A stretch of DNA of 64,000 nt, from assembly GCA_031292255.1 (NCBI GenBank), contig JARLHN010000029.1:93341-157340 (forward strand), given 5' to 3'. Positions 40,191 through 63,750 of this stretch are shown here, piece by piece. Position 1 is the first letter of the stretch, and every line of letters begins with the position of its first letter. The position numbers and the translations under genes were made by a program. The DNA is from Oryzomonas sp. Lineage in GTDB: Bacteria; Desulfobacterota; Desulfuromonadia; Geobacterales; Pseudopelobacteraceae. The notes under the pieces were generated by a model. It had not been told where the DNA came from. It made no database searches and saw only the letters and a list, made by a program, of their open reading frames with translations.

Positions 40191-40940
40191 ATGTTGAACG
40201 GAAAAAATATCGTGGTGGTTCTCCCCGCCTACAATGCCGCCAGAACCCTTGAAAAGACCTATCGGGAAATACCGCTCGATATTGTGGACGAGGTGATTCT
40301 CGTAGATGACGCCAGTCGTGATAATACCGCGGAAGTGGCACGCGGGCTCGGTATTCGCACCATCATACACCCAGTCAACAAGGGGTATGGCGGCAACCAG
40401 AAGACATGTTATCGCACAGCCCTGGACCACGGTGCGGACATCGTGGTCATGCTGCACCCCGATTATCAGTACACTCCCAAGTTGCTGCCGGCCATGGCGG
40501 CCATGATCGCCTATGACGAATTCGATGCCGTACTCGCTTCAAGAATACTTGGCACAGGTGCGCTTAAGGGTGGGATGCCGTTTTACAAATATGTTGCCAA
40601 CCGCTTTCTGACCTTTACCGAAAACGTCCTTCTTGGTCAGAAACTGTCGGAATACCATACCGGTTACCGGGCTTTTTCGCGAACTGTACTCGAAAGCCTA
40701 CCGCTGGATAACAACTCGGATGATTTCGTCTTCGATAACGAGATGCTGGCCCAGATAGCTTGGCATAATTTCAGAATCGGCGAACTCTCCTGCCCGACCA
40801 AATATTTTGACGATGCATCGTCAATTAATTTCCGGCGCAGCGTGATCTATGGGCTGGGTGTACTTGGTACTGCACTGAAATTCAGATTATGTAGGATGAA
40901 ACTGAGAGATGGTACGCGGATATACGGGGCAAAAAAGTAA
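40191..40940 (+). CDS. GT2 glycosyltransferase, polyprenyl-phosphate-sugar synthase-like
   Basis: The 249-residue GT-A enzyme opens [16 protein letters not shown], has the nucleotide-site [13 protein letters not shown] and an HPDYQYTP segment in place of the common DxD, and no membrane segment. It belongs with dolichol/undecaprenyl-phosphate hexose synthases (DPM1-like group), which load sugar from a nucleotide donor on the lipid carrier. It is a single gene closed by a convergent terminator. The lipid acceptor is inferred from family; the sugar is unknown. Confidence 0.85.
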
Positions 40941-40944
40941 CAGC

Positions 40945-40975
40945 AAGGGGAATTCAAGCAATTTGAATTCCCCTT
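40945..40975. terminator. Convergent stem-loop terminator
   Basis: aaggggaattcaa (40945-40957) and ttgaattcccctt (40963-40975) are perfect 13-bp arms around gcaat, between convergent GT2 and radical SAM genes. T-runs are weak on both sides. Confidence 0.6.
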
Positions 40976-41041
40976 ACTTAATCGTAAACCAATAGTTTCC
41001 GTCCCGAGATTCCGGATGGAAACTATTCCAACATTCCTGTT

Positions 41042-42505
41042 CTACGCAGTCATCACGCCGGTGTTGAAATGCATCGGCATATCGGAACCGGCAAAATCGA
41101 AGTGTTCGCCGTGGTCTTTCATCATTTCACGAAAAGCGCTGAGCATGTACTTCCTTTTGAAGCCGTCCTCGAGTTCGACAATCTCCTGCACCTTGTTGCT
41201 GTAAAACTTCATGTAACAAGTGCCCAGCGCCTGGGTAACCTCATCCATCGTCATCTCATACGGCTCGATAATGGGGGTCACCAAGTTGTATTTCGAGTAG
41301 TCGAAGACCCTGATGCGCTCCTTCATATCCTTGTAAATCGGCGTGAACGGGAAGGGGGTGACCACCGGGAACACGGCAATGTCCGGGTTGAGATACTTGG
41401 CGGATTCGATGGTGTTCTCTATGGTTTCCCAGGTTTCGTTCGGGAAGCCGACCATGAACGATGCTTCCGTAATGATTTCCGCCTCCCTCAGCAGGTCCAG
41501 GGCTGTTTTGTTCTGCTCGAAACTGGTCCCCTTGTTCAGGCTGTTCAGAGTGTCCTTGTCGGCGCTCTCCGCACCCAGATAGACGTGGATGATCCCGGCC
41601 TTGCGGTACTTGTCCAGGATATCCGCATCCCTGATGATATCCTCGACGCGGGTCTCGATCAGGAAGTACACCCCCAGGTTGCGTTCGATCAGCATGTCGA
41701 GCAGCAACTCCCACCGGTCGCGGTGCTTGGTGGGGTACGGGTCGATCAGGGTGATGAATTTGATGTCGTAGGTGGTGATGAGGTGTTCTATCTCCTCGAT
41801 GACGTTCTCTGGGGTACGGCAGCGCCAGTCCTCGCGCCAGAACATCCGCTGACTGCAGAAGGCGCACCCCATGTCGCAGCCCCGAGAGGTCAGAATGGAG
41901 GCCATCCTGCCGCCGGGTGCGACCTTGTACTGGTAGTCGTCCCAATCGAGGAGGTGCCAAGCGGGTTTGAGGTCGTCGAGCTTGACGATGTGGTGGTGCC
42001 GCTTGTTGGCCACAATCTTATCGCCGTCACGGAACGCGATGCCGGCGACATTCCTGGCCTCACCCTTCGGAAGCGCGGCGATCATATCCTTCAGGGTCTG
42101 TTCCGGCTCGCCGCAAAGGATGTAGTCAACCCGGTTTTCCCGGTCCTCGTAGATTTCCTCGTACATGAAGCTCGGATGCGGGCCACCCAGGAGGGTGACG
42201 ATGTTCGGGTTAACCTCCTTGGCAATGTTCATAATTCGGAGCGCGGCGGGCACCGTGGCGGTGCTGATGGCCCCGGTGACCGGGAGGTAGTCCAGGGTCA
42301 TGACATAATCAGGCTGGTAACGCTGTATCTCCTCCCTGATATTCTCGAACGAATGCTTCTTGTTCATGGCATCATATATCCTGGCCTCGGCCCCGACCTC
42401 AAGCGCCGCGCCCGCGAGATAGGCCAGATGCAGCGGCGGCCAGGTGCCGACAACCTGCACCCCCCAGCAAAAATATGGTGCCGTTACAAAAAGAATCTTG
42501 CTCAT
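41042..42505 (-). CDS. BchE-like B12-binding radical SAM enzyme
   Basis: The 487-residue protein has an N-terminal cobalamin-binding fold (about 1-140; GGPHPSF) and a radical SAM barrel with the 4Fe-4S motif CDMGCAFC followed by SQRMFW. The whole pattern (CSQ-x-x-FW, TPFPFTP, FDYSKYNLVTPI) resembles BchE, the anaerobic Mg-protoporphyrin monomethyl ester cyclase, and its relatives of unknown function. There are no chlorophyll genes here. Start at 42505 has GGGAG six bases ahead. A paralogue lies at 44587-46062. The substrate is unknown; glycan or lipid modification is a guess from context. Confidence 0.85.
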   Translation of the reverse strand: MSKILFVTAPYFCWGVQVVGTWPPLHLAYLAGAALEVGAEARIYDAMNKKHSFENIREEIQRYQPDYVMTLDYLPVTGAISTATVPAALRIMNIAKEVNPNIVTLLGGPHPSFMYEEIYEDRENRVDYILCGEPEQTLKDMIAALPKGEARNVAGIAFRDGDKIVANKRHHHIVKLDDLKPAWHLLDWDDYQYKVAPGGRMASILTSRGCDMGCAFCSQRMFWREDWRCRTPENVIEEIEHLITTYDIKFITLIDPYPTKHRDRWELLLDMLIERNLGVYFLIETRVEDIIRDADILDKYRKAGIIHVYLGAESADKDTLNSLNKGTSFEQNKTALDLLREAEIITEASFMVGFPNETWETIENTIESAKYLNPDIAVFPVVTPFPFTPIYKDMKERIRVFDYSKYNLVTPIIEPYEMTMDEVTQALGTCYMKFYSNKVQEIVELEDGFKRKYMLSAFREMMKDHGEHFDFAGSDMPMHFNTGVMTA

Positions 42506-42705
42506 TCGTTTCTCCCGTCCAACAAAGGTATCTGCAACCGATTGTATTCCGGCTGCGCCGGCACGTCTAACGAACCACGGCGTGCGGGGCTCATGTACAG
42601 CCAAATTTACCCTAACAAAGAAACGTGAAGAGGTAATAATGGAAATGTAAAGTTTTGGTAAAGAAGTGAATGGCGGGACTTTTGCCGAACTCCTGCAAAT
42701 TGACT

Positions 42706-42726
42706 CCCCTCCCGTGACGGGAGGGG
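42706..42726. other. GC-rich hairpin after the sensor kinase gene
   Basis: cccctcccg (42706-42714) and cgggagggg (42718-42726) are perfect 9-bp arms with a tga loop, between the kinase stop and the first BchE-like start, all on the minus strand. No T-run follows, so termination is uncertain. Confidence 0.5.
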
Positions 42727-42785
42727 GCCTGAAGGGACTTTTTAGATTTTTGCAAAAGCCTCAGGTGAGTAGTGAAAAAGGCGAA

Positions 42786-43859
42786 TTAGCCTTCTGTTGG
42801 GAGCCAGAACCATACGCGCGTTCCGTCCGCGTCGCTTTCGGCACCAACCGTACCGCCGTGCGCCTCGACCAACTCCTTGACGATCGCCAACCCGATACCG
42901 GCGCCTCCCGCGTCGCGGGAGCGGGAACGATCCGCCCGGAAAAAACGTTCAAACAGGTAGGGAATATCCTGCTTGGCGATCACGGCGCCGCTGTTGGCGA
43001 AGACGGTCTTGATGCCGTCCGCGTTCCGCAGGGTGGAAATCGTAACGGTTCCTCCACGCGGGGTGTATTTCCAGGCGTTATCGGTCAGGTTGCGGATCGC
43101 CTGCAGCAACTTGTCGCGGTCCGCGGACACCATCTCGCTGCCCGGTTCGAGACGCCACTGCACATTGATCTCCTTCTCCAGGAAGTTGGGCCGATACAGA
43201 TTCATGATCTGTTCGAGCAGTTCGTGAAGAGAGAGTTCCTGGCGGTCGAGGAACGCCCGGGCCGCATCGGCCCGAGCCAGTTGCTGGAGGTCCTCTACCA
43301 GGTTTACCAGGCGCAAGACCTCTTGCTCAAGCATGCGAAAGGTTTCCGGGGATGGGGGTATGACGGAGTCGCTTAGTCCCTCCAGGTAACCGCGCAGGTT
43401 GGTCAGCGGGGTGCGCAGTTCATGGGAGATGTCGGCCACCATATTCTTGCGCAGCCGTTCGATCTTCTCAAGGTTGTCAGCCATGTGGTTAAAGGCATCG
43501 GCCAACTGGCCCACCTCATAGCGGGAGGCGACATTCACTCGCTCGGAATAATTACCGTCGGCGACCTTCCTGGTGATGGCGGTTATCCGGGAAAGGGGGC
43601 GCAATACCCAGTGGGTGAGCATATAGGTCAGAAAGAGGGTCAGCGCCAACGCCGTGAGGGTGCCCCAGAACAGATCCCGGTGAATCACCTCCAGAAATTG
43701 GCGATGCTCGTTGATCGGCGCAACACGGAAGCGCCCCGCAAGGACCGTATAATAGTCGGACGCTTGCCGGTCGATGGCACGCCAGACCAGCAGATATATG
43801 ACGGCAAAAACAGGAACGATGTGGCCGACCAACAACTTCCAGAGCAGGCGCTGTCTCAT
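42786..43859 (-). CDS. Sensor histidine kinase (BaeS/EnvZ type)
   Basis: The 357-residue kinase has a membrane segment (about 10-28), a short periplasmic loop, a second membrane segment (about 62-82), HAMP (about 83-135), HisKA with H146 (DISHELRTPLTN) and a HATPase domain with N-box LTDNAWKYTP and GGAGIGLAIVKELVEAHGG. The periplasmic loop is short, so it may sense membrane state. Its gene begins immediately after the response-regulator stop, forming a two-component pair. Confidence 0.93.
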   Translation of the reverse strand: MRQRLLWKLLVGHIVPVFAVIYLLVWRAIDRQASDYYTVLAGRFRVAPINEHRQFLEVIHRDLFWGTLTALALTLFLTYMLTHWVLRPLSRITAITRKVADGNYSERVNVASRYEVGQLADAFNHMADNLEKIERLRKNMVADISHELRTPLTNLRGYLEGLSDSVIPPSPETFRMLEQEVLRLVNLVEDLQQLARADAARAFLDRQELSLHELLEQIMNLYRPNFLEKEINVQWRLEPGSEMVSADRDKLLQAIRNLTDNAWKYTPRGGTVTISTLRNADGIKTVFANSGAVIAKQDIPYLFERFFRADRSRSRDAGGAGIGLAIVKELVEAHGGTVGAESDADGTRVWFWLPTEG

Positions 43860-44582
43860 CTAGCCTTCCTCATCATCATTCTCGTCACTGAACCGGTAGC
43901 CATGTCCCCGCACGGTCTTGATAAACCGGGGCCGGGAGGGGTCATCCTCGATCTTTTGCCTGAGCTTGCCGATGTGCACATCAATGACCCGGTCAATGAC
44001 CACCTCGCCTTGAGGATAGCATTGACTCAGGAGCTCTTCCCGGGAGAAAGCCTTCCCGGGAGAACTCATCAGCGCCAGCAGGATCTTGAATTCCGATGAA
44101 GTCAGCATGATCGGGCGCCCATCACGGGCGACCCTGTGTTTTTCGGTATCCAGTTCGAGACCGGCAAAAGAGAAAACGGACACCGGCAGCGGTGATGACG
44201 GCCTGCTGCGACGGAGAATGGCCTTTACCCGCTCCACCAGTTCACGGGGGCTGAAGGGCTTGACCACGTAATCGTCGGCCCCCATCGCCAATCCCGCGAC
44301 CCGGTCGAGCTCTTCCTCCCGCGCCGTAAGCATCAGAATCGGGACATCGGAAGTTTTCCGCAGTGTCCGGCAGATTTCCCAGCCGTCCATTCCGGGCAGC
44401 ATGACATCAAGGATTACGAACACCGGCTTGCAAGCGGCGGCGGCCTCGATCGCTTGCAAGCCGTCGTGGACGACCAGCGTTGAAAAACCATCTCGCTCAA
44501 GATAAGTCGAAACCAACGCAGCGGTATTGCGGTCGTCTTCGACGATCAGCACGGTGTCCTGATTACTGACGGATTGGGACAT
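43860..44582 (-). CDS. OmpR/PhoB family response regulator
   Basis: The 240-residue regulator has a receiver with acidic pair ED at about 17-18, phospho-acceptor D59 (LDVMLPGMDG) and a conserved Lys in VVKPFSPRE, then a winged-helix DNA-binding domain ending VIDVHIGKLRQKIEDDPSRPRFIKTVRGHGYRF. Start at 44582 has GGAGG ten bases ahead. It lies four bases after the second BchE-like gene, so the radical SAM enzyme, regulator and kinase are one operon. Confidence 0.95.
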   Translation of the reverse strand: MSQSVSNQDTVLIVEDDRNTAALVSTYLERDGFSTLVVHDGLQAIEAAAACKPVFVILDVMLPGMDGWEICRTLRKTSDVPILMLTAREEELDRVAGLAMGADDYVVKPFSPRELVERVKAILRRSRPSSPLPVSVFSFAGLELDTEKHRVARDGRPIMLTSSEFKILLALMSSPGKAFSREELLSQCYPQGEVVIDRVIDVHIGKLRQKIEDDPSRPRFIKTVRGHGYRFSDENDDEEG

Positions 44583-44586
44583 GAAA

Positions 44587-46062
44587 TTAGTTTCCTCCCC
44601 CCTGGCCATCCGTCTTGCCGCCTTCGACTTTCAACTTTATTTTGCCCAACAATCCGATGCCGAGCTTCCTGATGACAAAAGGGCTGCTCATGAACAGTTT
44701 CGTTGCCCGCAGCAGGTAGCCCCGCTTGAAGTCATCCTTCATAGTCATGACATCAAGTATCTTGCCCATGTAAAATTTACGGAAACAGTCCGCCAGCGCA
44801 ACATCGACCTGAAGCATGCTCATGCCCTTCGGCTCCAGCACCGGGTCCACCAGGTTGTATTTCGAGTAGTCCCATTGCCGGATATACTGTTTCACATCCT
44901 CGTACATGTCGCTGTACGGCCAGGGGGTAAGCGCCATAAAGTTCGCATTGTCCGGGTTGTAGTGCCGGACCAGCTTCATGGTATCATTTATATGCTCGGG
45001 CGTCTCGTCGGGAAAACCGATGATGAAGGAGGTTTCCGAAACTATCCCTTGCTCATGGATCAGCTCCAGGGCGCGTTTGGCCACATCGCTTTGAATATTT
45101 TTCCCGATGGCGTCGAGAATGCCCTGATTGGTCGCCTCGACACCGATTGAAATATGAATGATCCCTGCTTTCCGGTATTTCCAGAGGATATCCCCGTCGC
45201 GAACGATGTCATCCGGCCTGGTCTCCATCAGGAAATGAATCGGGAGGTTTCGCGCGATGAGCAGATCGAGGAAGTTTTCCCAACGTCCCCGGTCCCTCGT
45301 AGGATATTCGTCGGTTATCAGGACAACATTGACCTTGCAGGTCGCATGAAGGTATTCCAGTTCCTCCACCACATTAACGGGATTACGCGCACGCCATGTT
45401 TTTTCCCAGAACTTCCGCTGTGAGCAGAAAATGCAGTCATGGTCACATCCGCGCGAAGTGCTTATCGCCCCAAGCCTCGAATCAGGGATGACAAAATAAG
45501 TGTAGTCTTCCCACTCCAGCAGGTCCCATGCCATTGGCAGACCGTCGAGTTCCTCCACGAGGGGGCGTCTTGCGGTCCTGACGACAGCCCCCTCCCGCCG
45601 AAAAGCCACACCTGGGACCGTCGCCGGGTCTTCGCCACTCTCCAGCACCGTAAGCAGGTGGCGCAGCGTGGCCTCACCTTCACCGATAACGATATAATCC
45701 ACGGCAGCCGGTGCAGCTGCAAGCACCTCTTCGTACATGAACGTGGGATGAACCCCGCCGAGAATGGTCACGGTGCCGGGATTGATGCGTTTGGCAAGTT
45801 CGAGAGTCTTAACGGCATCGTTGATGGTCGCGGTCATGGCGGTGGACGCGACATAATCGGCCGCCATTTCACCCATGTGCATTTCCATCTCGGGATAGCC
45901 GTGGTTTTTTGCGGCAGCGTCGTAAATCCCGGCCACCAAGCCCGCCTGACGGGCAGCGCCCGCCAGATACACGAGGTTGAGCGGCATCCAGCGGCCGATG
46001 ACTTCCGCCACGCCGCAATGATACGGGGGGGTGATGAATATGATTTTCTTGGTCTGCGACAA
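44587..46062 (-). CDS. BchE-like B12-binding radical SAM enzyme (paralogue)
   Basis: The 491-residue enzyme is a close-patterned paralogue of the 41042-42505 gene: B12-binding N-terminus (PYHCGVAEVIGRWMPLNLVYLAGAA, GGVHPTFMYEEV), radical SAM motif CDHDCIFC then SQRKFW, and the tail TPWPYSD and WDYSKYNLVDPV. As with BchE the B12 domain lacks a clear DxHxxG box, so cobalamin may bind base-off without a His ligand or loosely. It begins ten bases after the TPR membrane protein upstream and is followed by the two-component genes. Confidence 0.85.
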   Translation of the reverse strand: MSQTKKIIFITPPYHCGVAEVIGRWMPLNLVYLAGAARQAGLVAGIYDAAAKNHGYPEMEMHMGEMAADYVASTAMTATINDAVKTLELAKRINPGTVTILGGVHPTFMYEEVLAAAPAAVDYIVIGEGEATLRHLLTVLESGEDPATVPGVAFRREGAVVRTARRPLVEELDGLPMAWDLLEWEDYTYFVIPDSRLGAISTSRGCDHDCIFCSQRKFWEKTWRARNPVNVVEELEYLHATCKVNVVLITDEYPTRDRGRWENFLDLLIARNLPIHFLMETRPDDIVRDGDILWKYRKAGIIHISIGVEATNQGILDAIGKNIQSDVAKRALELIHEQGIVSETSFIIGFPDETPEHINDTMKLVRHYNPDNANFMALTPWPYSDMYEDVKQYIRQWDYSKYNLVDPVLEPKGMSMLQVDVALADCFRKFYMGKILDVMTMKDDFKRGYLLRATKLFMSSPFVIRKLGIGLLGKIKLKVEGGKTDGQGGGN

Positions 46063-46071
46063 CTTATTCCC

Positions 46072-47961
46072 TCACTTCTGCGGTGCGTAACGGCCGTTGT
46101 TTTCCGGGAAATAGCCGGCAATCAGCCGGTTGAAGGAGGGTAACCGCCGGAGTGCATCAAGCTCAGGATTGCGGGTGATAGCTTCCAGGTTCCGGTAACC
46201 AAGCTTCAGAGCCTCTTCAAGATGCTGTAATGACTTCTCATAGTCTTTTGAAAGGGCCTCGACACAGGCCATGTTATACTGAAGATCAGGGCTGTTCCCG
46301 CCATTTTCGTAGGACTTTTGATACAATGCCCGTGCTTCGGCAACTCTCCCCGTTTCGAGGCATATATTCCCGAGTGAAACAAGTGCTTGAGAAGAACCTG
46401 GCTCAATCGATAATGCCTGGCGGTATGCCTTTTCCGCATTCGCCTGATCCCGCGAAAGGTAATAACAGTATCCGAGGTTAATAAACCCGGGAAAGAAGTC
46501 TGGAAACTTCGTTGTAAGAGTGGCCAGGAGCGGCTTTGCCTTCACGAGCAATCCGGCATTTATGTAGAGGCCTGCGGCCTCATTCAATGCCTTTCGCTCG
46601 ATCGCGGGCTCGGAAAACCCCCCTTCCGAGGCAAATACTTCGTTGTAGGTTGTGAGGGCTCTCTCCGTTTGGCCGGAATTAAGGTATGCTTCGGCAAGGG
46701 AAGCGCGTGTTTCTTTAGTCGGGAGTTTCTTTGCGGCATCGATCCAGAGGGTAACGGAGTTTTGCCAGACTTCCGCCCGCTGATAAGAGAGCGGCACCAA
46801 GAATACGAGGATCAACGAAATGAGCAGGTGTGCCGGGTTCACCCTTTTTTCGGGAAACATATCGTTCAATCGGGACAACCCGCCTCCGGCAACCCATGCG
46901 GCGCCAAGCATGGGGAAATAGAGATACCGGTCATTCATCAGGGTCACGAGTGGAACAATCTGGGACACCGGAACAAGGCCGAGGAAGAAGAGGGCAAAGC
47001 CGAAGAACAAGCGTTGTTCCCGGCGCAAGAGATATATTCCGGCGCAACAGAGCGCCCCGACTAAAAGGAGGGCAAAAATGACTTCTCCATCGACACCGGT
47101 TTTTATCCCGAAGATATAAATCAGCTTTAGATTAGAGGGCCAGATTAGAATATGCAGGTAACTGGTCAGAACGGTGAGCATTGTAAGGATTTTAGCAGCC
47201 ATGTTACCGGCAAAGTAATCAAAGCTCCCTCCGCCCTTTTCGAAAGACTGGGTAATCAAAGCAACAACGGACGTAACTGCCGCAGCGGCAAAATAAGGAA
47301 TCTTGTCTACGATAATTCCTTTTCTTCTTCCTGCCTTTTCGAGAAAAATATCGTACAGGAGAAAGACGAACGGCATGATGACTGCCACCGACTTTGATAG
47401 GAGAGCAAGCACCAGGAAAATTATGGAAAAAGTATAGGCTCGCTTCCTTCCCTTCTCCGTCCTTTGGCGATACGCGATGTATGAGAGGAAGGAACAGAGT
47501 GAGAAAAACATCGCCAAGAGGTTCTTGCGCTGAGATATCCATGCAACCGACTCAACCTGGACCGGGTGCAGGAGAAAAAGGGCGGACGACGCAAATGCCC
47601 AAAAAGGTTTTCCCGTCAAGCGCCGGACCAGTAAGTAGAAGAGGAGCCCATTGACAATATGAAGTACGACATTAACCCCATGGAACCAAGCCGGATTCAT
47701 CCCTACCAGTTGAAAATCAAGCATGTAAGAAAGGAGATGGACCGGTGCATAGTTGCCGACATACGACGTTGAAAAGAGATGAACCAGATTTTTAGCGGTT
47801 ACTCCCTGAATATCCGGATTGTACGTTACATAGAGGTTATCATCCCAATTGGAAAGAAAATCGTACCCCACGGTCTGTCCATAAACGGCAAGGGTAAGGA
47901 GTATAAGCCCCATTGCGGGAATGAGATGCTTTCGTAATCTGGCAAAAAGAGCTTGCAACAT
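46072..47961 (-). CDS. TMTC/PMT-like GT-C membrane protein with TPR repeats (paralogue A)
   Basis: The 629-residue protein has a hydrophobic N-terminal two thirds (about ten membrane segments to residue 420) and a soluble TPR domain (about 430-610). A paired acidic site D40-D41 (NWDDNLY) follows the first membrane helix, where PMT, OST and TMTC enzymes keep catalytic Asp. Other shared blocks are YVGNYAPVHLLSYMLDF, HPVQVESVAWISQRK and LMNDRYLYFP. The architecture equals that of bacterial TPR proteins related to eukaryotic TMTC O-mannosyltransferases. It heads the operon with the second BchE-like gene. Sugar transfer to a secreted protein or lipid is inferred. Confidence 0.8.
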   Translation of the reverse strand: MLQALFARLRKHLIPAMGLILLTLAVYGQTVGYDFLSNWDDNLYVTYNPDIQGVTAKNLVHLFSTSYVGNYAPVHLLSYMLDFQLVGMNPAWFHGVNVVLHIVNGLLFYLLVRRLTGKPFWAFASSALFLLHPVQVESVAWISQRKNLLAMFFSLCSFLSYIAYRQRTEKGRKRAYTFSIIFLVLALLSKSVAVIMPFVFLLYDIFLEKAGRRKGIIVDKIPYFAAAAVTSVVALITQSFEKGGGSFDYFAGNMAAKILTMLTVLTSYLHILIWPSNLKLIYIFGIKTGVDGEVIFALLLVGALCCAGIYLLRREQRLFFGFALFFLGLVPVSQIVPLVTLMNDRYLYFPMLGAAWVAGGGLSRLNDMFPEKRVNPAHLLISLILVFLVPLSYQRAEVWQNSVTLWIDAAKKLPTKETRASLAEAYLNSGQTERALTTYNEVFASEGGFSEPAIERKALNEAAGLYINAGLLVKAKPLLATLTTKFPDFFPGFINLGYCYYLSRDQANAEKAYRQALSIEPGSSQALVSLGNICLETGRVAEARALYQKSYENGGNSPDLQYNMACVEALSKDYEKSLQHLEEALKLGYRNLEAITRNPELDALRRLPSFNRLIAGYFPENNGRYAPQK

Positions 47962-48243
47962 CTTTTTTAGTCACCTTTATCTATCGCATTCAGATTGGTT
48001 CTTGTTCCCACAACCCGGCACCGGTTTTCCCTTCATGTCGCAATTCACACGAGGCAATGCCCCGGGATGCCGCGCCTTACCGCCGGTGTTTTACCAAGAC
48101 GTAATAACGTACCATACATAATTCTGGTTATCAATGGCCGCCAACTATGATATATAGTGTAAAAATGAAGAAAAAGCGGTGTTGGAACAACGTTGCTCGT
48201 ATCATCCGGTAAATGGCCGGTCAATGGGGCATCAGGAAAACCA

Positions 48244-49197: not shown

Positions 49198-49313
49198 TCC
49201 CCGGGGGAAACAGGGTGCTCAGGGAACCGGAGACGGCCAATCCTGTAAACTTGATCAATAGCCGCTGAAAAGAAACCTTCCAGTCCAGAAAAACATTGTC
49301 ACAGGACCTCGTT

Positions 49314-53870: not shown

Positions 53871-53992
53871 TGGAAATAGCTTGATCTCGTGATGTTATTA
53901 TTTCTATGATTTTATAATTATACTATCCTAGCATCTTTGGGTACTGGTTTGACCAAATAACCAATGAACAACAAGGCGGAAACAGGACATTT

Positions 53993-55959: not shown

Positions 55960-57513
55960 TTATCCAGCCGGGAAATCAAACCACTGCGGCGTGACATGGG
56001 AGAAAAAGAGAGGGATGTTGGCAGCCATAAACATGAGGGCAGTCGCGACTGCAACGGACAAGCGAACATACCGGTTGCTGAAAAGGCGCATCAGATAGCA
56101 GATCGCAAGCACATAGATCGGGCCGATAACGGGAAAGATGTAGCGCCCCTGCAAGGCAATCCCGGGCTGTTCGTAGTAAAGGTACGCCTTGTAACAGACA
56201 AAATACAGAAGAAACAGGGCGTAAAACGCTCCGATGACCGCCATACAGGGAGGCAGCCATCCTTCCCTGCCAGGCCGCCACCGGCGCATAAATCCGAGGG
56301 CCGACAGGAGGAACAAACCGACAAAAGGGACAATAACCCTCACATCATCGTACAACAACCCCTCGTGGCACTTGATGCCGAACACCGTCAACATTATGTT
56401 GTAGCCCCATAGCTTGCTGTACGCCGGCAGTCCGAACATCCGGACTCCAGAATTCATGACATAATCGTGGTTTTCGATGAGTATGGCCGTGTCCTCGCGG
56501 TCACTCGTATTGCTGATTTGCCCGGTCATCGCCAGCGCCTGTTCTTTGGTGACCTGCCCGTTCTTGAAAAGCCTGAAGATAATCTCCCGAGCCGCTAGCC
56601 GGTTCTGCATGGCGGCCTTCATGGGGAGGACGTCGGCAATCTCGGGCGCCAGACTTCCATAACTGAGATAATTGCCCGCGTAAAGCTGGATGTTCAGCCC
56701 CGTACCGACGAGGATCGCGAACAAGAGCCAAAGACCCCGACGCCCCGCTCCATGGAACCACGACAGCAGTTCGGCAGGGAGTTCCCTGATATTGCCAACC
56801 TCGTGGAGGCACAACAGAACATTCAAGACCAGCACCAGCGGCAGGAAAGAGGACTTGGTGAGCCCCCCCGCCAACTGGCACAGCAGAGAAAATGCGAGCA
56901 GGCTCCCGGACCGGTTCTTGAAAAAGGCGAGCAGATAGTAGACGGCCATGGCTGCCAGGAGATTCGCCAGATTGTCGTACGATACCGCGGCGGAGAGAAA
57001 CGAGAACATCAGGGTGTTGGTCATGGCGACCAGCAGGAGGAGCCGGCTGAGCCGGTCGTCGGTCAGAAGGCGCAGCGTGCGACAGACATAGAAAACCGTG
57101 CCGAAAGCAAGCGGGATATTGAGGAGGCGGAGAAACAGCAGGTCCGGGATGCCGAAAAAATTGACATGCAGCAGTTTCCCCATGCTCCAGTAGTAGAGCC
57201 ACGGGATGTTGGTGATCAGTCCGTACTGGTAGGATTCGGGAGAGTTATCAGGGAGAAAAAACTCCTTGGAGAAGATCGTACAGCATCCGAAATGGGTCGC
57301 CTCGTCCGGCGGCACAAAAGGGGCAATGCTGATGGCGAAGAAGAGGAGCTGAAGGCCGAAATAGCCCAGAAGAATTATCACAGCCCAATTGAAGAACCTG
57401 CGGGACGGGAATGCCCGTTCCGCAGCTATCACAGAAGAAGACGAATTTTCCGCGGAAATCCGTCCCTCTTCGGATAATTGGCGGGAAGCCGGGCATTCTC
57501 TATCTGTATTCAT
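55960..57513 (-). CDS. DUF2142-like multi-pass membrane protein, probable GT-C glycosyltransferase
   Basis: The 517-residue protein has a polar N-terminus, about ten membrane helices and, just after the first, the acidic motif APFVPPDEATHFG (PPDE), the place of the catalytic acidic residues in GT-C enzymes. AVSYDNLANLLAA and GRYIFPVIGPIY are further marks of the DUF2142 group, whose members occur in surface-polysaccharide and teichoic-type clusters. It ends the minus-strand run lipoprotein B > TPR D > lipoprotein A > DUF2142, with a 13-base gap to lipoprotein A. Confidence 0.7.
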   Translation of the reverse strand: MNTDRECPASRQLSEEGRISAENSSSSVIAAERAFPSRRFFNWAVIILLGYFGLQLLFFAISIAPFVPPDEATHFGCCTIFSKEFFLPDNSPESYQYGLITNIPWLYYWSMGKLLHVNFFGIPDLLFLRLLNIPLAFGTVFYVCRTLRLLTDDRLSRLLLLVAMTNTLMFSFLSAAVSYDNLANLLAAMAVYYLLAFFKNRSGSLLAFSLLCQLAGGLTKSSFLPLVLVLNVLLCLHEVGNIRELPAELLSWFHGAGRRGLWLLFAILVGTGLNIQLYAGNYLSYGSLAPEIADVLPMKAAMQNRLAAREIIFRLFKNGQVTKEQALAMTGQISNTSDREDTAILIENHDYVMNSGVRMFGLPAYSKLWGYNIMLTVFGIKCHEGLLYDDVRVIVPFVGLFLLSALGFMRRWRPGREGWLPPCMAVIGAFYALFLLYFVCYKAYLYYEQPGIALQGRYIFPVIGPIYVLAICYLMRLFSNRYVRLSVAVATALMFMAANIPLFFSHVTPQWFDFPAG

Positions 57514-57526
57514 TACGGATTACTGC

Positions 57527-57967
57527 TTATAACGCATCCATTTTCAGGCCAAAATCCGGGATTTTCATTGTGCTTGTTTCGATTGGCGTCATTTCTCGTA
57601 CGGAAAACGTATTATTTTGCCAGGTGATAATCATATTTTTACCGGATTTCATTGATTTGCCGTTAATTGCTATATAGATATTGCTACCCCGAGTCTTTTT
57701 ATCACCAGCCTGAATAGCCCCATTGATATAGCCCTCAACAACCTCGATAATTCCCTTGGGCTTTCTCACCGGTCCCCATATATTATTATTTGAAATCCAG
57801 TCAACGGCCTTTTGCTTTTCTTTTTTCGGCAGTCCCGATGATGAATATTTTATTATTACGAGTTCTGTCGGCTTCATGCCAGCTTCTTTGCCCGGTTCTT
57901 TGCTTTTTCCCTTGCCACACCCCACAACGGCCACTAAAACTAACAGCAGCAGACACATTTTCTTCAT
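57527..57967 (-). CDS. Small lipoprotein A (paralogue of 60051-60443)
   Basis: The 146-residue protein has a lipobox VVGC with Cys17, a Lys/Gly/Glu linker, then a compact domain with KEKQKAVDWISNNNIWG, a Lys/Ser/Gly-rich MKSGKNMIITW and the end NTFSVREMTPIE through MKIPDFGLK. It is not recognised as any named family. It is encoded between TPR paralogue D and the DUF2142-like gene, probably in one transcript. Confidence 0.75.
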   Translation of the reverse strand: MKKMCLLLLVLVAVVGCGKGKSKEPGKEAGMKPTELVIIKYSSSGLPKKEKQKAVDWISNNNIWGPVRKPKGIIEVVEGYINGAIQAGDKKTRGSNIYIAINGKSMKSGKNMIITWQNNTFSVREMTPIETSTMKIPDFGLKMDAL

Positions 57968-58109: not shown

Positions 58110-59954
58110 TCAATTGAGAAGCTTCCGGAATTCAGGCAAGGAACGTAATGAATCCAGCGCAGGATCCTGCAGAATCTGTCTCGTATCCTTGAACCCACGG
58201 CGCAGCGCCTGTCCCAGATTTTCCAGCCCTTCGCCCCGCCTGCCGATGATGGCGTCCAGTCGCGCAAGATCGTAATAATACGCTGGGGCCTCTCCTCCCA
58301 CGGCAATGGCTTGTTGATAACAGGTGAGCGCAACCTCAAAATTACCCGCTCTTTCGTAGACATGTCCGTATTTATTGATCATTGCGCCGTTATCAGGCTC
58401 CAGTTGCAGCGAGCGGCTCAGCGCCCGCTTCCCATCCTGCGCGTTCCCCATCAGCAGATAAGCCAGGCCCAGCAATCTATAACCTTTGGCATACCCGGGA
58501 TTGGCGGATACCAGTTTTTCCAGATTGTTCACCGTATGATCATACCTGCCGAGGATCAGGTAGACATCGCCGAGGTTATTCAGGGCATCCCTGTCGTCCG
58601 GGACCAGAAGCAGCGCATTTTCGTTCGCTGCGGCAGACTCGGCGAATCTGCCGGCGCTGTACATTATGTCGCCAAACACCACCCATGCGTCGGCGGTTGG
58701 GTACTTTTGTACCGTATCGCTGACCAGGGCCAATGAATCGTGCCAAACCTGAGAACGCTGCCACGACATGACGGGAAGAGGAAGCAGGATCAGGCAGAGC
58801 AAACACGTCCCGGCCCATGTAGCCCGAGGCAGCAGCCTGTCGAAGAGAAGTAACGCTCCCCATGAAAAAATTGCCGCACAGCCGAGAAGGGGGAAATAGA
58901 GGTAGCGGTCATTCATCAGCGATACGAGCGGAACGATCTGTGCTACCGGCAGGATGGCGATCGGAACGATGGCCGCCCAGAAAAACATCCGCCTGTTTTT
59001 GCGGAAAAGGCACCAAAGGCCGAAACATGACAGTATCACCAGGAATCCGGCAACGGCAACGCTGCCATCAATGGTGGTCTTTATCGGTGGCGTGTAAATA
59101 AGACTCAGGTCCGTCGGCCAGAAAAACATGCCGGCATAGCGCATGAACACAGTCAGCATGGTCAGGAATGTCGCAAACGCGCTCCCGCCATGATAGGAGG
59201 TGATCGCCCCCCCATACTGCTGGCTCTTTACTGCCAAAAAGCATGTCATAGCGGCGGCGGCCACGAAGGGAAGCTTGTCGAGCAGCCATCGCCCGCGATT
59301 TTCCCGCGCGACAAAACAGCAGTCATAGAGAACGAGGATCGGCGGCAATATTACAGCTATGGACTTTGACAACAGGGCAAGGGAGAATGCGAAAATGGAC
59401 AGGACATAGCTTGAATATCTATCGGAACCGTTTTTATTGCGATACCTGATATAGGAAAGCAGGGAGACGAGCAGGAAAAACATCGCCAGTACGTTTTTCC
59501 TTTCCGATATCCAGACAACAGATTCAACCTGCACTGGATGGAACAGAAAGATGAAGGCGGCAAAAAATGCCAGTCTGGCATTCGCAGTAAGCCTGACAAG
59601 GAGGTGATAATACAGCAGGCCGTTCAGCGCGTGCAGTATGATATTCGAGCAGATGAAGCCCGCCGGCTTCAACCCCCAGAGGGAATAGTCGAGCATATAG
59701 GAAATGATATGCAACGGCGCATAATTTCCCACGTAATAGCCAGTGAATGCCGCCCGCAGGTGGTCAAGGGTAAATCCGCGGATGGCGGGGTTGGCGATCA
59801 CATACAGCTTGTCATCATATTTATCGATGAACTGGTGCCCGAGCGATTGGTAGTAAACCGCCGCGGTTATGCCCAGCAACAATATCACGTTCAGGAGAGC
59901 ATGGTTCGAATGGCGGTCAAATTTATGAAAAATCCTATTCAACAACGAAACCAT
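58110..59954 (-). CDS. TMTC/PMT-like GT-C membrane protein with TPR repeats (paralogue D)
   Basis: The 614-residue protein has the family plan: D47-D48 (DKYDDKLYVI) after the first helix, YYVGNYAPLHIISYMLDYSLWG, HPVQVESVVWISERK, LMNDRYLYFPLLG, and four or five TPR units from about 430. Unlike A and B the residue before DD is Tyr. It lies between the two related small lipoprotein genes on the same strand, which suggests that the lipoproteins could be partners or acceptors. Confidence 0.8.
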   Translation of the reverse strand: MVSLLNRIFHKFDRHSNHALLNVILLLGITAAVYYQSLGHQFIDKYDDKLYVIANPAIRGFTLDHLRAAFTGYYVGNYAPLHIISYMLDYSLWGLKPAGFICSNIILHALNGLLYYHLLVRLTANARLAFFAAFIFLFHPVQVESVVWISERKNVLAMFFLLVSLLSYIRYRNKNGSDRYSSYVLSIFAFSLALLSKSIAVILPPILVLYDCCFVARENRGRWLLDKLPFVAAAAMTCFLAVKSQQYGGAITSYHGGSAFATFLTMLTVFMRYAGMFFWPTDLSLIYTPPIKTTIDGSVAVAGFLVILSCFGLWCLFRKNRRMFFWAAIVPIAILPVAQIVPLVSLMNDRYLYFPLLGCAAIFSWGALLLFDRLLPRATWAGTCLLCLILLPLPVMSWQRSQVWHDSLALVSDTVQKYPTADAWVVFGDIMYSAGRFAESAAANENALLLVPDDRDALNNLGDVYLILGRYDHTVNNLEKLVSANPGYAKGYRLLGLAYLLMGNAQDGKRALSRSLQLEPDNGAMINKYGHVYERAGNFEVALTCYQQAIAVGGEAPAYYYDLARLDAIIGRRGEGLENLGQALRRGFKDTRQILQDPALDSLRSLPEFRKLLN

Positions 59955-60050
59955 GACGCATGGACTCCCGCGACCGTGAATGTTGCCGCATTTCCACGTC
60001 CAGTGCCCGTGCGGTTAGTCGCGGGACACTGGTCGCGAAAATCCCACACT

Positions 60051-60443
60051 CTATAAATAACCCTTTTTCAGCCCGTAACCCGGAATCTTCATTTCGCTTA
60101 TTTCCTTTTCAGTCATCTCTCTTACGGAAAAGGTAGAATTCCTCCATATCAACGTCATATATTTTCCGGATTTCATCATCTTATTGCTAAAGTCGATATG
60201 AAAATTGCTACCTGCCGTGTTCTCAGAACTGCTATTGGCAGCAATCTTGATAGCATTATCAATATTTATTTCCACATACTTGACCAGGTTATCCGATTTT
60301 TTATCTAATCCCCAGACATTGTTGTTTTTAATCCATTCAACAGCCTTCTGTTTTTCTTCCAATGGAACACTATTTTTCATGACAACTTGCGTGCACCCCA
60401 CAATACTCATCAAGCAGACCAATAACATCACTACAATTTTCAT
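60051..60443 (-). CDS. Small lipoprotein B (paralogue of 57527-57967)
   Basis: The 130-residue protein has lipobox IVGC with Cys17 and shares with lipoprotein A the blocks EEKQKAVEWIKNNNVWG and MKSGKYMTLIW-x-NSTFSVREMT, ending MKIPGYGLK. The linker after the lipid Cys is shorter. Function unknown. It is the first gene of the minus-strand run through TPR paralogue D. Confidence 0.75.
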   Translation of the reverse strand: MKIVVMLLVCLMSIVGCTQVVMKNSVPLEEKQKAVEWIKNNNVWGLDKKSDNLVKYVEINIDNAIKIAANSSSENTAGSNFHIDFSNKMMKSGKYMTLIWRNSTFSVREMTEKEISEMKIPGYGLKKGYL

Positions 60444-60512
60444 AACAATCTCCTCCTGGGTTTATGTTGAACAATCGACTTTTATTATTTTTGAAATCAA
60501 CTCAAGGAGAAT

Positions 60513-61571
60513 TCAGTATGTCTCCATTATCTTTTTTAGCTCTTTCCCAATTACAGCAATACTGCATTTCTCCAAAAATGTCTTATACCCCGCTTCTGCA
60601 ATTTGCTCTCTCAACGTTGCGTTGTCCCTTAGTTCCAAAATAGCATTAACGAGAGATTCTGCATCAGCCATTTTAACGAAGAGTGCGTTTTTTTTATCCT
60701 TGAACAACTCATCGTTTGCCGGGCAATCTCCGACAATTACCGGTTTTTTCATGGCAATAAATTGATAAGTTTTCCCTGCTATGACCCTCGTAGCCTTATC
60801 TATATCTGAAAAGTGTCCACCGAGACAAACGTCAGCTTTTGCGATTTCCATCGGCAATTGCTCATAGGGAAGCCAGTCGATGAAGTGCGTATTGATAAGG
60901 CCAAGGCTCATTCCAAGATTTCGGGCCTTTTTTTTCTCTGGCCCATTACCAACAATGATGAATTCTATTTCACCCTCGTTTCGCAATAAGGCGGCGGCTT
61001 TCAAAATATACTCGGTACCGTGTAGCGGCAGAAAGGATGAGTAATAGAAAATCCGGAACTTTGAGTCATCCCTTGTGTTTTCTCGCGGGTAAAAGAGGGA
61101 TTCATCCGCACCTACAAACAGCCTGCTGAATTTTTCCCGAGGTAAATTGAACGTTTTCGTGAAATAGTTAATGTGTGCATTCGTGTCCAGCAATATTCTG
61201 TCGGCCCGTTCACAAGAATGTTTGTCCAGCCAATAAAATAATCTTCCAGCGTATGATGTTGGCTTACATTTTTTCCTATCATCGCACATCGTATCATATA
61301 TAGACAAAAAGGCATCAAAGATTATGGGTTTACTGGTAAACATTCCAATGAGCGGAACCAGGGGCTGTCCTAGAAAACCTATAAAAACCAACTTTATGTC
61401 AATACTACCCATAAGGATGTACTTACACATCACCTTTATATACCGTATCAAATAGAAAGCCGATGAATCCGTGCACTCAATGATTTCGACTTCGCTCCGT
61501 TTCAATCCATTTAATATCACGGAATTTCTGATATATGCCGGTTCACGACCTGAAATGAAAAGGATTCTCAC
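60513..61571 (-). CDS. GT4 family glycosyltransferase
   Basis: The 352-residue GT-B enzyme opens MRILFISGREPAYIRN and has the donor-site half with FRIFYYSSFLPLHGTEYI, IIVGNGPEKKKA, HFIDWLPYEQLP and KTYQFIAMKKPVIVGD, typical of family 4. It uses a nucleotide sugar on the cytoplasmic side. Base composition is distinctly AT-rich compared with the first half of the window, as in the next two genes, suggesting acquired glycan genes. Confidence 0.85.
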   Translation of the reverse strand: MRILFISGREPAYIRNSVILNGLKRSEVEIIECTDSSAFYLIRYIKVMCKYILMGSIDIKLVFIGFLGQPLVPLIGMFTSKPIIFDAFLSIYDTMCDDRKKCKPTSYAGRLFYWLDKHSCERADRILLDTNAHINYFTKTFNLPREKFSRLFVGADESLFYPRENTRDDSKFRIFYYSSFLPLHGTEYILKAAALLRNEGEIEFIIVGNGPEKKKARNLGMSLGLINTHFIDWLPYEQLPMEIAKADVCLGGHFSDIDKATRVIAGKTYQFIAMKKPVIVGDCPANDELFKDKKNALFVKMADAESLVNAILELRDNATLREQIAEAGYKTFLEKCSIAVIGKELKKIMETY

Positions 61572-61628
61572 CCTATCACCGCAAATGAAGCGGATCGATG
61601 GATTGTCGGAAAAAAACGCCTGGTTAAA

Positions 61629-62720
61629 TTATTTTTTTTGAATCTTTTCCAGCACATCACGATAAACCTCTACCGTCTTTTCCGACATTTTTTCCCAAGA
61701 AAATTCCCCGGCCCTTTCGATTGCTTTTGCAGATAGCTGCCCCCTCAATTCAGGCTCGGTTAAGACTTTCAATATGCTCTTTGCAATTTGATCTATGTCA
61801 TTTGGATTCACAAGGATTCCGGCATCGGAGAGAAATTCCGGAGCGTCGAGCACAGCGCCGACAATTACGGGTGTGCCGCATGCCATGGCCTCAAGAGTAG
61901 ACAAGCCGAAACCGCATCTGGATGGGAAGATCATGACGGTAGCCGTGGAATAGTATCCGGAGAGCTCATTTTCCGGAATGTATCCCTCGAAGGTAACGTT
62001 ATTCAATCCCATCTCGTTGACCATTTCTTCGAGGAATGGCTGGTCCCTGCTTCTTTTGCCGGCGATCACCAATTCCGCCTCAGCCATGAATTGCTTAACA
62101 ATGCCAAAGGCCCTGATAAGAGAATCCACGCCTTTGGATCGACTTACTTCACCAATGTAGAGAATCTTTCTGTTTTCCCTTTTGACCGATGTACGAGGAT
62201 GATACAACGCATGGTCAACACCATAGTTCACTACATATATTTTTGATTCAGGAATTCCAAAACGAGTAACAATCTCATCCTTGGTCACTTTATACGGTAC
62301 TACTATGGCACTGCTTCTCTTTACGCTTATCTTGATACAAAGTCTTACATACCAATATTTCCACGAATAATCATATCCTTTGAGATTGAAAGGGACCAGA
62401 TCGTGTATGGTAATTATAAGCGGGGATTTCCCCAATATGGCTGCCGTAGCTCCGCCAATGGGCGAGATGGCATGATACACGTCTGCTTTTGTGGTGAGTA
62501 AATCATATATGAATTTAAAGTGTTTTATTCCGGCGGTTAAGACCCCTTTAGAGCATCCTTGCTGCAATAGGCGCAACTTGATGCCGGCATGGATTTTTTC
62601 TATATTTTGCGTTAGCTCGGAAATATATCTGTCATGGCCTCTTCCCGTATTTTTCGATGGATAATAGGGATAACACATCATGCAGAGTTTGAATCTCGGT
62701 GCATCTTCATTATTATGCAT
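61629..62720 (-). CDS. GT4 family glycosyltransferase
   Basis: The 363-residue GT-B enzyme has GRGHDRYISEL early, DVYHAISPIGG, KILYIGEVSRSKGVDSLIRAF, LVIAGKRSRDQPFLEEM and the donor motif SRCGFGLSTLEAMACGTPVIVG with the usual E-x7-E pair. It probably adds a mannose-type sugar to a lipid-linked glycan. It is 57 bases upstream of the other GT4 gene on the same strand. Confidence 0.9.
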   Translation of the reverse strand: MHNNEDAPRFKLCMMCYPYYPSKNTGRGHDRYISELTQNIEKIHAGIKLRLLQQGCSKGVLTAGIKHFKFIYDLLTTKADVYHAISPIGGATAAILGKSPLIITIHDLVPFNLKGYDYSWKYWYVRLCIKISVKRSSAIVVPYKVTKDEIVTRFGIPESKIYVVNYGVDHALYHPRTSVKRENRKILYIGEVSRSKGVDSLIRAFGIVKQFMAEAELVIAGKRSRDQPFLEEMVNEMGLNNVTFEGYIPENELSGYYSTATVMIFPSRCGFGLSTLEAMACGTPVIVGAVLDAPEFLSDAGILVNPNDIDQIAKSILKVLTEPELRGQLSAKAIERAGEFSWEKMSEKTVEVYRDVLEKIQKK

Positions 62721-62796
62721 ATGATTATAACCTTTGTTAAGCGAGACGCCGCTATCTGTTTTCGATGTGACACACTGACACTTGGTTGTTTATGAG

Positions 62797-63750
62797 TTAT
62801 GTTTTTATATAACCCTCATTAATAAAATTGCGCATAAGCTTGAGTGCAATTACGCCGAGGAATATGTCTACCAGCATATTCACTATCCGGGAGGCAATCG
62901 GCAATATGAGTGACAATGAACCGGATAAAGCGCCACCCAGCATCATGTACATGAATCCCTCCCGAACCCCCAGCCCTCCGGGAACTATAACGGCCAGAAA
63001 TCCTATGACATCGGAGAGCAGCAACGATGACATTACCAACAGTATCTTACCAGGTTCAATGTGAAACCCAATACCTAAACATAACAGATATGCGCCAACC
63101 CCCAAAATGAATGCAGCGCCGATATGGATAACATGCAAATGCAGCAGCAGTTTTTTAGTTACATCGAAATGTTTGATGTTACATTTTAATATTTTGTTCA
63201 ACAACATTATTATCCTGTTGAATATTACAGAATTAAACTCTATAAAACAAATATCAATCAAGATAAATATAAGAAGCAGTGCAAGAGTGGCTGCAAAGGG
63301 AAATCTGTTCGGAGAATAGAGCAGGTAGGCAAGACCTACTATTATAGTAGTAATTATTGATATAATTATATTTATTATATTGACATAAAGTATCAAAGCT
63401 TTTGAATATCCAATATTTGCCAACCAATACATTTGCAGTGAAAATGACCATATCTTGCCAGGAATATATTTTGTAAGATTGCTGGCATTTACTATGGCAA
63501 TACTTTGAGAAAATGATAAATCGTTGCGGTTAGATATTGAATTAATGGTAATATACCATCCATACGTTGAAATAAGATAGGTACTCAGTATGGTTATAAA
63601 CGATGACGATAGAAATACATAATTAATTTCAAACCTATGCAACTGTATGCTGGACCAATTTCTCTGAAAGGTTTTATAAAAAAAAACAGATACGCTTAAA
63701 ATGATAATTATGGAAATAAACGTTTTAATTGCATTGCTTACTCTGGTCAT
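62797..63750 (-). CDS. AglD/UPF0104-type integral membrane protein
   Basis: The 317-residue protein has seven or eight membrane helices and the family block VPGGLGVREGFMYMMLG near 245-262. UPF0104 (lysylphosphatidylglycerol-synthase membrane region) proteins occur in glycan clusters and include archaeal AglD, linked to sugar transfer from dolichol phosphate. The start at 63750 (MTRVSNAI) is preferred to the longer frame, whose first residues are polar and unlike the family. The gene is very AT-rich. Confidence 0.78.
   Translation of the reverse strand: MTRVSNAIKTFISIIIILSVSVFFYKTFQRNWSSIQLHRFEINYVFLSSSFITILSTYLISTYGWYITINSISNRNDLSFSQSIAIVNASNLTKYIPGKIWSFSLQMYWLANIGYSKALILYVNIINIIISIITTIIVGLAYLLYSPNRFPFAATLALLLIFILIDICFIEFNSVIFNRIIMLLNKILKCNIKHFDVTKKLLLHLHVIHIGAAFILGVGAYLLCLGIGFHIEPGKILLVMSSLLLSDVIGFLAVIVPGGLGVREGFMYMMLGGALSGSLSLILPIASRIVNMLVDIFLGVIALKLMRNFINEGYIKT

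Follow-up and report, generated by a model that had tools for sequence, protein, structure and literature searches.

Introduction

The TMTC proteins belong to an O-mannosylation pathway, full-length prokaryotic homologues of them have been noted, and in models of these enzymes the glutamate of a KE motif and the aspartate of a DW motif bind metal and residues of an SHKSYRP motif touch the mannose (PMC7801869). Among other glycosyltransferases of the C fold class (GT-C), TfpW adds D-arabinofuranose to its pilin (PMC11841053), and other known members of the class attach pentofuranoses to O antigens (PMC11127046). In Geobacter the cytochrome filaments OmcS and OmcE are reported to be surface-glycosylated and OmcZ is reported not to be (PMC9473688), pili and surface polysaccharide matter for electroactive biofilms (PMC5585712, PMC4974642), and the papers surveyed name no enzyme for the protein glycans of OmcS and OmcE. 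Here we describe an island of glycosyltransferase-type genes, including four paralogues that join a TMTC-like GT-C domain to C-terminal tetratricopeptide repeats (TPRs), at 40191-63750 of the window, a 64,000-nucleotide stretch of an Oryzomonas genome (positions 93341-157340 of contig C9, G000:C9).

A sequence-only reading of the window had proposed that the island is a bacterial multi-enzyme O-glycosylation system. The reading favoured here, to which we give about an even chance, is that it encodes periplasmic GT-C enzymes using a polyprenyl-phosphate sugar, the likeliest acceptor being a secreted or envelope protein. Contig C9 stops exactly where the window ends, and the island may therefore be cut or may continue off the contig. 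C6, C18, C30 and C42 are other contigs of the same genome, L-numbers denote loci of relatives and G-numbers denote genomes.

The four TMTC-like enzymes

The four paralogues, referred to by their first positions, are encoded at 46072-47961 (minus strand), 49296-51182 (plus strand), 53993-55888 (plus strand) and 58110-59954 (minus strand). The sequence-only reading had placed their open reading frames (ORFs) in the same positions except for the start of the second, which it set at 49314, a GTG seven codons inside the TTG chosen here; this start is unsure. An alignment of the four bears out the elements which that reading had seen in these membrane-TPR proteins, with a DD pair, an HP..(V/A)E block and an (N/A)DRYLYFP block common to all of them. 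In this alignment 46072 is 43% identical to 49296, 25% to 53993 and 39% to 58110. The nearest relative of 49296 is 58110, and relatives of 46072 at 62-67% identity are found in L009, L010, L011 and L093. Domain calls were made with Pfam and NCBIfam profiles and their cut-offs, and matches below a cut-off are described as such. TPRs exceed the Pfam cut-offs in all four proteins. A search against PMT and TMTC models had been proposed as a check, and its PMT side gave a mixed picture: 46072 alone exceeds the PMT_2 cut-off (28.8 against 26.1 bits), and 58110 has a PMT match below the cut-off. PMT_2 matches at E 0.01 occur in 12 of 44 N-terminal domains of relatives. The listed Pfam matches of the four, which for 53993 are the best 25 of 28 families, include no MIR domain.

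A profile built from the four window paralogues found 175 longer relatives, and in these aspartate occupies each DD position in 170 (with 3 gaps), the lysine of the KS/KE motif is kept in 173, an arginine of the second outer loop (EL2) in 158 and the arginine of DRYxY in 155. With the DD pair, the lysine and the DRYxY arginine so widely kept in this set, the shared blocks are far beyond chance. Hydropathy averaged over 70 alignment rows (A2) gives 11 segments, which may be 11 transmembrane helices if 197-215 represents two helices around the KS motif and 268-286 the juxtamembrane helix that TMTCs are known to have. In that arrangement the K/R-rich loops would lie inside, and the DD pair, DRYLY and the TPR tail are predicted outside from hydropathy and loop charge; the short EL2 loop, WISQRK, would lie outside and be charged, fitting the need of its catalytic-site arginine. 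The TMTC-like architecture claimed by the sequence-only reading is thereby supported, with DD predicted on the outer side, in the form of a polytopic GT-C-like domain followed by C-terminal TPRs.

At the site of the TMTC ERxxY motif all four paralogues read DRYLY, with D for E, and at the site of the RxD motif in the second outer loop three have R (RKN or RKT, with no D), the exception being 53993, which reads VPE and so is without the common EL2 arginine. The TMTC pair YRP/KE is replaced by YAP/KS in 46072, 49296 and 58110, and only 53993 keeps R and E (YYRP/KET). Across 198 aligned GT-C domains the variable residues of YxP and Kx co-vary, with R/E in 55, A/S in 54, x/P in 46 and other pairs in 43. 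These rows, all of at least 430 residues and with a DD near the start, are what remained of 214 distinct ORFs once 8 of lesser length and 8 with no DD in that place were set aside, and since they were picked for holding DD, its conservation has been quoted from the set of 175. By this classification 46072, 49296 and 58110 are A/S, 53993 and the copy on C18 are R/E, and the copies on C6, C30 and C42 are H/P. On a tree from FastTree, which has long branches that meet, R/E needs two changes and a single supported set of 65 takes in 52 of the 54 A/S rows; with so few changes the R/E, A/S and x/P classes are lineages, and the residue pair is a lineage mark and not the outcome of repeated swaps. Independent co-change of the two sites was considered and rejected, R/E having arisen by two changes and independent pairs being too few.

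Probable donor supply

Three genes of the island, all on the plus strand, encode GT2 enzymes, and the sequence-only reading of them as polyprenyl-phosphate sugar synthase-like is confirmed by Pfam and by likeness to PDB structures. The product of 40191-40940 is of this type (PF00535; 5mlz at E 2e-7). That of 48193-49197 has a C-terminal hydrophobic part and resembles dolichol-phosphate mannose (DPM) synthase (5mlz at E 1e-9) and AglJ (NCBIfam model at E 3e-29, below the cut-off). That of 51287-52018 is GtrB-like and DPM-synthase-like (5eke/5ekp at E 2e-18, 5mlz at E 8e-18). The closest PDB chain to 40191 and 48193 is 5mlz, a dolichol-phosphate mannose synthase, and 51287 is closest to the GtrB-type sll0501 (5eke/5ekp) and then to 5mlz. 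Matches to ArnC-type structures, found for all three, would also accord with a lipid as the acceptor, in the way that ArnT acts on lipid A, and ArnT is the template nearest the TMTCs (PMC7801869). A lipid acceptor leaves the TPR domains and the presence of up to 24 matches per genome unexplained, and we consider it very unlikely.

The distribution of such GT2 genes was compared with a background of 80 windows from five genomes of the order (G052, G053, G056, G095 and G113). The tested loci are named contigs of genomes other than these, a few of them from other phyla; for the A/S copies, most of the closest named relatives come from Geobacteraceae or Geobacter genomes. Neighbour counts take in only copies with enough flanking sequence, and those for GT2 and lipoprotein genes leave the window out. 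A GT2 gene lies within 4 kb of 11 of 39 A/S copies, 11 of 12 R/E copies and 6 of 18 copies with other pairs, against 3 of the 80 background windows, and when one copy is taken per locus the count is 14 of 49 against 3 of 80 (p 8.6e-5). In L052 a GT2 gene encoding a 78% relative of 48193 shares 4 bases with a TMTC-like ORF. L075 has a GT2 ORF flanked by two TMTC-like ORFs, each of which it overlaps by 4 bases; the ORF starts in these overlaps were assigned mechanically. Proximity and overlap together are the best evidence that the TMTC-like proteins work on a lipid-linked sugar. The coupling to polyprenyl-phosphate sugar synthases that the sequence-only reading had supposed is upheld by the A/S and R/E counts, and the predicted transfer of a lipid-linked sugar in the periplasm is well supported by context.

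A mechanism can be outlined on this basis. Judging from homology, the GT2 enzymes of DPM-synthase and GtrB type would load undecaprenyl phosphate with a sugar on the cytoplasmic side of the membrane, and the lipid-linked sugar would next be flipped across it, for which some membrane protein encoded in the island may serve. No flippase was identified in the window, where the candidate 62797 is without a family match; no search was aimed at GtrA, SMR or MATE genes. The TMTC-like enzymes, with the DD pair in their first outer loop, a conserved lysine and the DRYxY loop, would transfer the sugar in the periplasm, as their predicted topology allows. The periplasmic TPR domain would pick the acceptor, for which a secreted or envelope protein is the likeliest candidate. 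Conservation is lower in the TPR part than in the GT-C part, with mean identities of 0.28 and 0.44, and this holds in 1526 of 1540 pairs from 56 rows; if this faster-diverging domain picks the acceptor the paralogues would serve different acceptors. The divergence fits different acceptors and also fits weak constraint; the paralogue-specific targets of the sequence-only reading are consistent with it and stay conjectural.

Departures from the TMTC family

Several results weigh against the favoured reading, and one group of them concerns the likeness to TMTC itself. The position of the KE glutamate is occupied by S in three of the four paralogues, and reading the alignment by eye revealed no DW pair in that stretch of the four that forms the fourth outer loop. 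The TMTC_DUF1736 profile (PF08409), whose family we take to be CAZy GT105, matches none of the four paralogues at E 0.1 (for 53993, among the best 25 of 28 families), none of the 44 N-terminal domains of relatives at E 0.01 and none of the 76 genomes of the family. Applied to 395 genomes of the phylum, the same search found matches in 9, of which 7 exceed the cut-off, so that the profile is able to detect bacterial members. A profile of 44 GT-C domains found no PDB sequence match at E 1, and the assignment of the GT-C fold accordingly rests on the PMT_2 matches in 12 of 44, the motifs and the topology. Finally, the x/P class has no significant link to GT2 genes (2 of 14 copies within 4 kb).

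On sequence grounds, then, the four paralogues are TMTC-like by likeness and are not members of the TMTC family; the TMTC side of the proposed profile search was negative, with no DUF1736 match, and YRP and KE are missing from three of the four. Because the A/S members are without YRP, KE and DW, their use of donor or metal has probably changed: the A/S paralogues probably have an altered donor or metal site, and mannose transfer is not required of them. Mannose, the donor sugar suggested by the sequence-only reading, is indicated by no result. That the A/S copies are no longer sugar transferases at all, and act as membrane-anchored TPR adaptors, would agree with the lack of YRP and KE in three paralogues and with the DW pair not being seen. 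The same three proteins retain the DD pair, the lysine, the EL2 arginine and DRYLY, GT2 linkage persists in their class (11 of 39), and the class makes up 54 of the 198 aligned relatives, all of which makes loss of transferase function very unlikely in our judgement.

Expansion of the family

The genome that contains the window has eight copies of the gene, four in the window and one each on C6, C30, C42 and C18, so that three active-site classes stand side by side in one genome. Searched with the GT-C domain of 49296 at E 1e-6, 64 of the 76 family genomes have matches, as do 50 of the 53 with a completeness of 90% or more and a contamination of 5% or less. The three highest counts are at least 24, 23 and 22 matches, the number scored having been capped in two of the three genomes, and G026, G037 and G048 fall in this range of 22 to 24, with several matches in tandem rows; such per-genome matches include pieces of one gene. 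The tandem habit is marked in the A/S class, in which 31 of 42 copies, the three of the window included, lie within 4 kb of a further copy. The island is thus a single instance of an expansion that is strong, uneven and often in tandem.

The C18 lineage and type IV pilins

The copy on C18 (L128:8105-10030) lies outside the window and carries the motifs DD, YYRP, GRTD, KEA and AERYIY; all 29 aligned members of its lineage are R/E. Upstream of it are a PilR-like gene, genes for two prepilins of 70 residues and a geopilin-domain-2-like gene whose best PDB match, 7tgg_a, is weak (E 0.18). The same row (L128:2059-12526, G000:C18) also holds TPR/GT41 (OGT-like) proteins. Within the family a prepilin on the same strand lies no more than 1.5 kb upstream of 18 of 27 C18-lineage copies and of 1 of 165 of all others, a count that leaves out 3 C18-lineage and 19 other copies with too little sequence; the patterns used for prepilins, lipoboxes and CXXCH motifs were uncurated. 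When the search was extended to about 8 kb, a same-strand upstream prepilin was found in 9 of 20 C18-lineage loci, in 8 of them at 3.0-7.0 kb, these loci comprising 19 chosen for having no close prepilin together with L190, and some being cut by contig ends. For the C18 copy the type IV pilin encoded just upstream is the likely acceptor. The pilin link holds only for this copy of the genome and for its lineage.

A second neighbour bears on the sugar. The next gene is of UbiA type after 11 of 32 C18-lineage copies, with 12 more too short to judge, and after 0 of 168 other copies, with 31 more too short; the loci of the 11 are L176, L178-L183 and L185-L188. Three of these genes score 217.3, 218.8 and 201.9 bits against the NCBIfam model for decaprenyl-phosphate phosphoribosyltransferase, which has a cut-off of 207. 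A phosphoribosyltransferase-like gene occurs in 51 of the 76 family genomes at E 1e-20, 42 of them over the cut-off, and that of the window's genome, at 205.8 bits just under the cut-off, lies on C18 some 41 kb from the TMTC-like gene. Glycosylation of pilin with a pentofuranose is a sharp hypothesis that these neighbours suggest. It can be widened into a reading of Geobacterales-wide, acceptor-specific TMTC-like protein glycosyltransferases, in which the C18 lineage, keeping most TMTC motifs, would put pentofuranose on geopilins by way of the decaprenyl-phosphate phosphoribosyltransferase-like enzyme, and the expanded A/S and H/P lineages, their donor sites altered and some with DPM-type GT2 enzymes of their own, would modify other surface proteins, perhaps cytochrome filaments. 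Taken as a whole we regard this wider reading as rather doubtful.

Some results count against glycosylation of pilin with a pentofuranose. Outside the family the pilin link is weaker, with a prepilin within 1.5 kb in 1 of 11 rows from 12 order-level loci (L159-L170). Prepilins within 1.5 kb are absent from all 11 copies followed by a UbiA-type gene, and conversely the L190 copy, which stands immediately behind a prepilin, is not followed by a UbiA-like gene. In the window's genome the phosphoribosyltransferase-like gene adjoins exporter-like genes, as judged by eye. Among the 11 UbiA-followed copies, 6 do have a prepilin at 3.0-4.6 kb, with genes of ATP-binding cassette (ABC) type between. In L243 the order, read by eye, is pilus genes, geopilin-like, TMTC-like, ABC genes and UbiA-like, and in L182 the ABC ATPase exceeds its Pfam cut-off and the permease falls below.

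These exporter genes give substance to a serious rival, to which we allow a sizeable though less than even chance: that the substrate of the TMTC-like enzymes is a surface polysaccharide, either O antigen or exopolysaccharide, with the TPR domain binding a partner in the polysaccharide machinery and not the acceptor. Three-component systems, in which a GT-C enzyme is teamed with a flippase and a polyprenyl-phosphate sugar synthase, add side chains to O antigens (PMC11127046). In G. sulfurreducens GSU1498-1508 is a cluster for an extracellular anchoring polysaccharide (PMC3495685), numbered right after pilA-N (GSU1496) and pilA-C (GSU1497) (PMC11934962), and includes the ABC exporter gene xapD, GSU1501 (PMC5585712, PMC4974642). 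In several C18-lineage loci ABC genes likewise stand between the geopilin-like and UbiA-like genes, the phosphoribosyltransferase-like gene of the window's genome is beside exporter-like genes and not beside a TMTC-like gene, and there are two GT4-like genes in the window. Opposed to a polysaccharide acceptor are the position of several C18-lineage copies directly behind pilin genes and the general tendency of TPRs to bind proteins. The known pentofuranose GT-C enzyme, by contrast, has a carbohydrate-binding module (PMC11127046).

Acceptors of the window's copies

For the window's own copies the neighbouring genes point to no acceptor. No prepilin-like ORF is present in the window, and prepilins stand beside only 1 of 42 A/S copies. 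Small lipoproteins within 4 kb are not enriched, at 3 of 39 A/S copies against 8 of 80 background windows, or 2 of 49 against 8 of 80 with one copy per locus, the filter having missed lipoprotein B of the window; for this lack of enrichment they were set aside as general acceptors. The sequence-only claim of protein O-glycosylation by the window's copies gains nothing from prepilins or lipoproteins. The two GT4-like genes of the window, and the exporter-like genes seen by eye near a related donor gene, point towards polysaccharide work.

Cytochromes were also considered. A gene with at least three CXXCH motifs lies within 4 kb of 14 of 42 A/S copies, compared with 13 of the 80 background windows (p 0.04 in a series of many tests), and of 2 of 14 x/P, 2 of 13 R/E and 1 of 18 other copies; no such gene was seen in the 20 C18-lineage loci. 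As acceptors they were rejected as anything more than a weak lead. On C30 (L126:9493-12507) the gene after the H/P-class copy encodes 322 residues that hold 12 CXXCH motifs and has Pfam matches of cytochrome c7/c3 type. Protein O-glycosylation is the favoured, unproven reading of the acceptor.

Other genes of the island

On the minus strand between 41042 and 46062, two radical SAM-type genes surround a two-component system in a block that is syntenic with the TMTC-like gene in L010 and L011. It consists of a B12-binding radical SAM protein (41042-42604; Pfam B12-binding and Radical_SAM), a sensor histidine kinase (42786-43859) and a response regulator (43860-44609), both named by eye from their translations, and a second radical SAM-like protein (44587-46062) that clusters with 41042. 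In L010 and L011 the genes after a relative of 46072 (64-65%) are related to 44587 (66%), 42786 (78%) and 41042 (78%), and L011 includes a relative of 43860 as well (79%); relatives of 44587 at 65-66% are found in L010, L011 and L052. Geobacter sp. AOG1 is among the carriers of this block. Although syntenic in these close relatives, radical SAM neighbours are not significantly frequent in general (5 of 42 A/S copies against 5 of 80 background windows). Relatives of 48193 (78-79%) and of 55960 (51-55%) are present in L011 and L052, both TMTC-like loci, a relative of 51287 in L010 (61%), and relatives of 40191 in L052 (78%) and L093 (84%).

Downstream of the GT2 gene at 51287 is a SUMF1/FGE-like gene (52079-52900, plus strand; PF03781 at E 1e-41) with a signal-like N-terminus by eye. 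A polytopic membrane protein, possibly a GT-C enzyme, is encoded at 55960-57513 (minus strand). The sequence-only reading had called it DUF2142-like, and it has no Pfam match at E 0.1; only a membrane protein fragment at 53288-53884 (plus strand), 55% identical to it over 142 residues, resembles DUF2142 (PF09913 at E 0.0017, below the cut-off). This fragment, on the opposite strand to 55960, looks like a remnant copy of it. Two small lipoprotein genes on the minus strand, A at 57527-57967 (lipobox by eye), whose product may be an acceptor, and B at 60051-60443 (by eye), flank the TMTC-like gene 58110; they are paralogues (49.5% identity over 103 residues) without a Pfam family. Of two further minus-strand genes read earlier as GT4 enzymes, 61629-62720 is one by Pfam (PF00534 at E 3e-31), and 60513-61571 is GT4-like through GT4-type NCBIfam matches below the cut-off, the best at E 2e-13. 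The last gene, 62797-63855 (minus strand), encodes a polytopic membrane protein that might be a flippase; an earlier likeness to AglD was not recovered, no Pfam or NCBIfam family matching it.

The guanine plus cytosine (GC) content of the island (40191-63750) is 49.3%, against 57.9% in bases 1-39000. It is 55-60% in the block genes 41042-46062, and 35-37% in 62797-63855 and in 60051-60443. The island looks like an old block with later additions of lower GC.

Comparison with known systems

With its many copies, its polyprenyl-phosphate sugar synthase neighbours and a lineage linked to pilin genes, the TMTC-like family offers genes to delete and targets that can be tested, and the three classes in one genome would show how a GT-C scaffold changes donor and acceptor. 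If the doubtful wider reading were true, TMTC-type chemistry would be widespread in bacteria and not bound to mannose. No open-licence PMC paper naming both TMTC and Geobacter was found, and none of the matches listed (the best 7 to 20, open-licence PMC) deals with the TMTC-like expansion, its active-site classes or its linkage to pilins.

Set against described enzymes, the window's family shares with bacterial PMT (GT39) matches to the PMT/PMT_2 clan in some members, and differs in that these matches are weak and no MIR domain is listed. With the three-component systems, of Gtr type or of the GT136 pentofuranose type, it shares a polyprenyl-phosphate sugar synthase next to a GT-C enzyme, by sequence likeness and linkage; it differs in its C-terminal TPRs and many paralogues, and in that no flippase was identified in the window. 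The comparison with TfpW, the pilin arabinosyltransferase of Pseudomonas aeruginosa, is one of gene setting: the window's four copies are without a prepilin neighbour, but the C18 lineage is linked to pilin genes, as TfpW goes with its own, and 11 of 32 copies precede a decaprenyl-phosphate phosphoribosyltransferase-like gene. From TMTC1-4, the animal O-mannosyltransferases, the family is set apart by the missing DUF1736 match, the DW pair that was not seen and the YAP/KS motifs of its A/S class. It agrees with them in a predicted count of about 11 transmembrane helices, the DD pair in the first outer loop, the (D/E)RxxY loop and outer C-terminal TPRs, and 53993 and the C18 copy also keep the YRP and KE of TMTC1-4.

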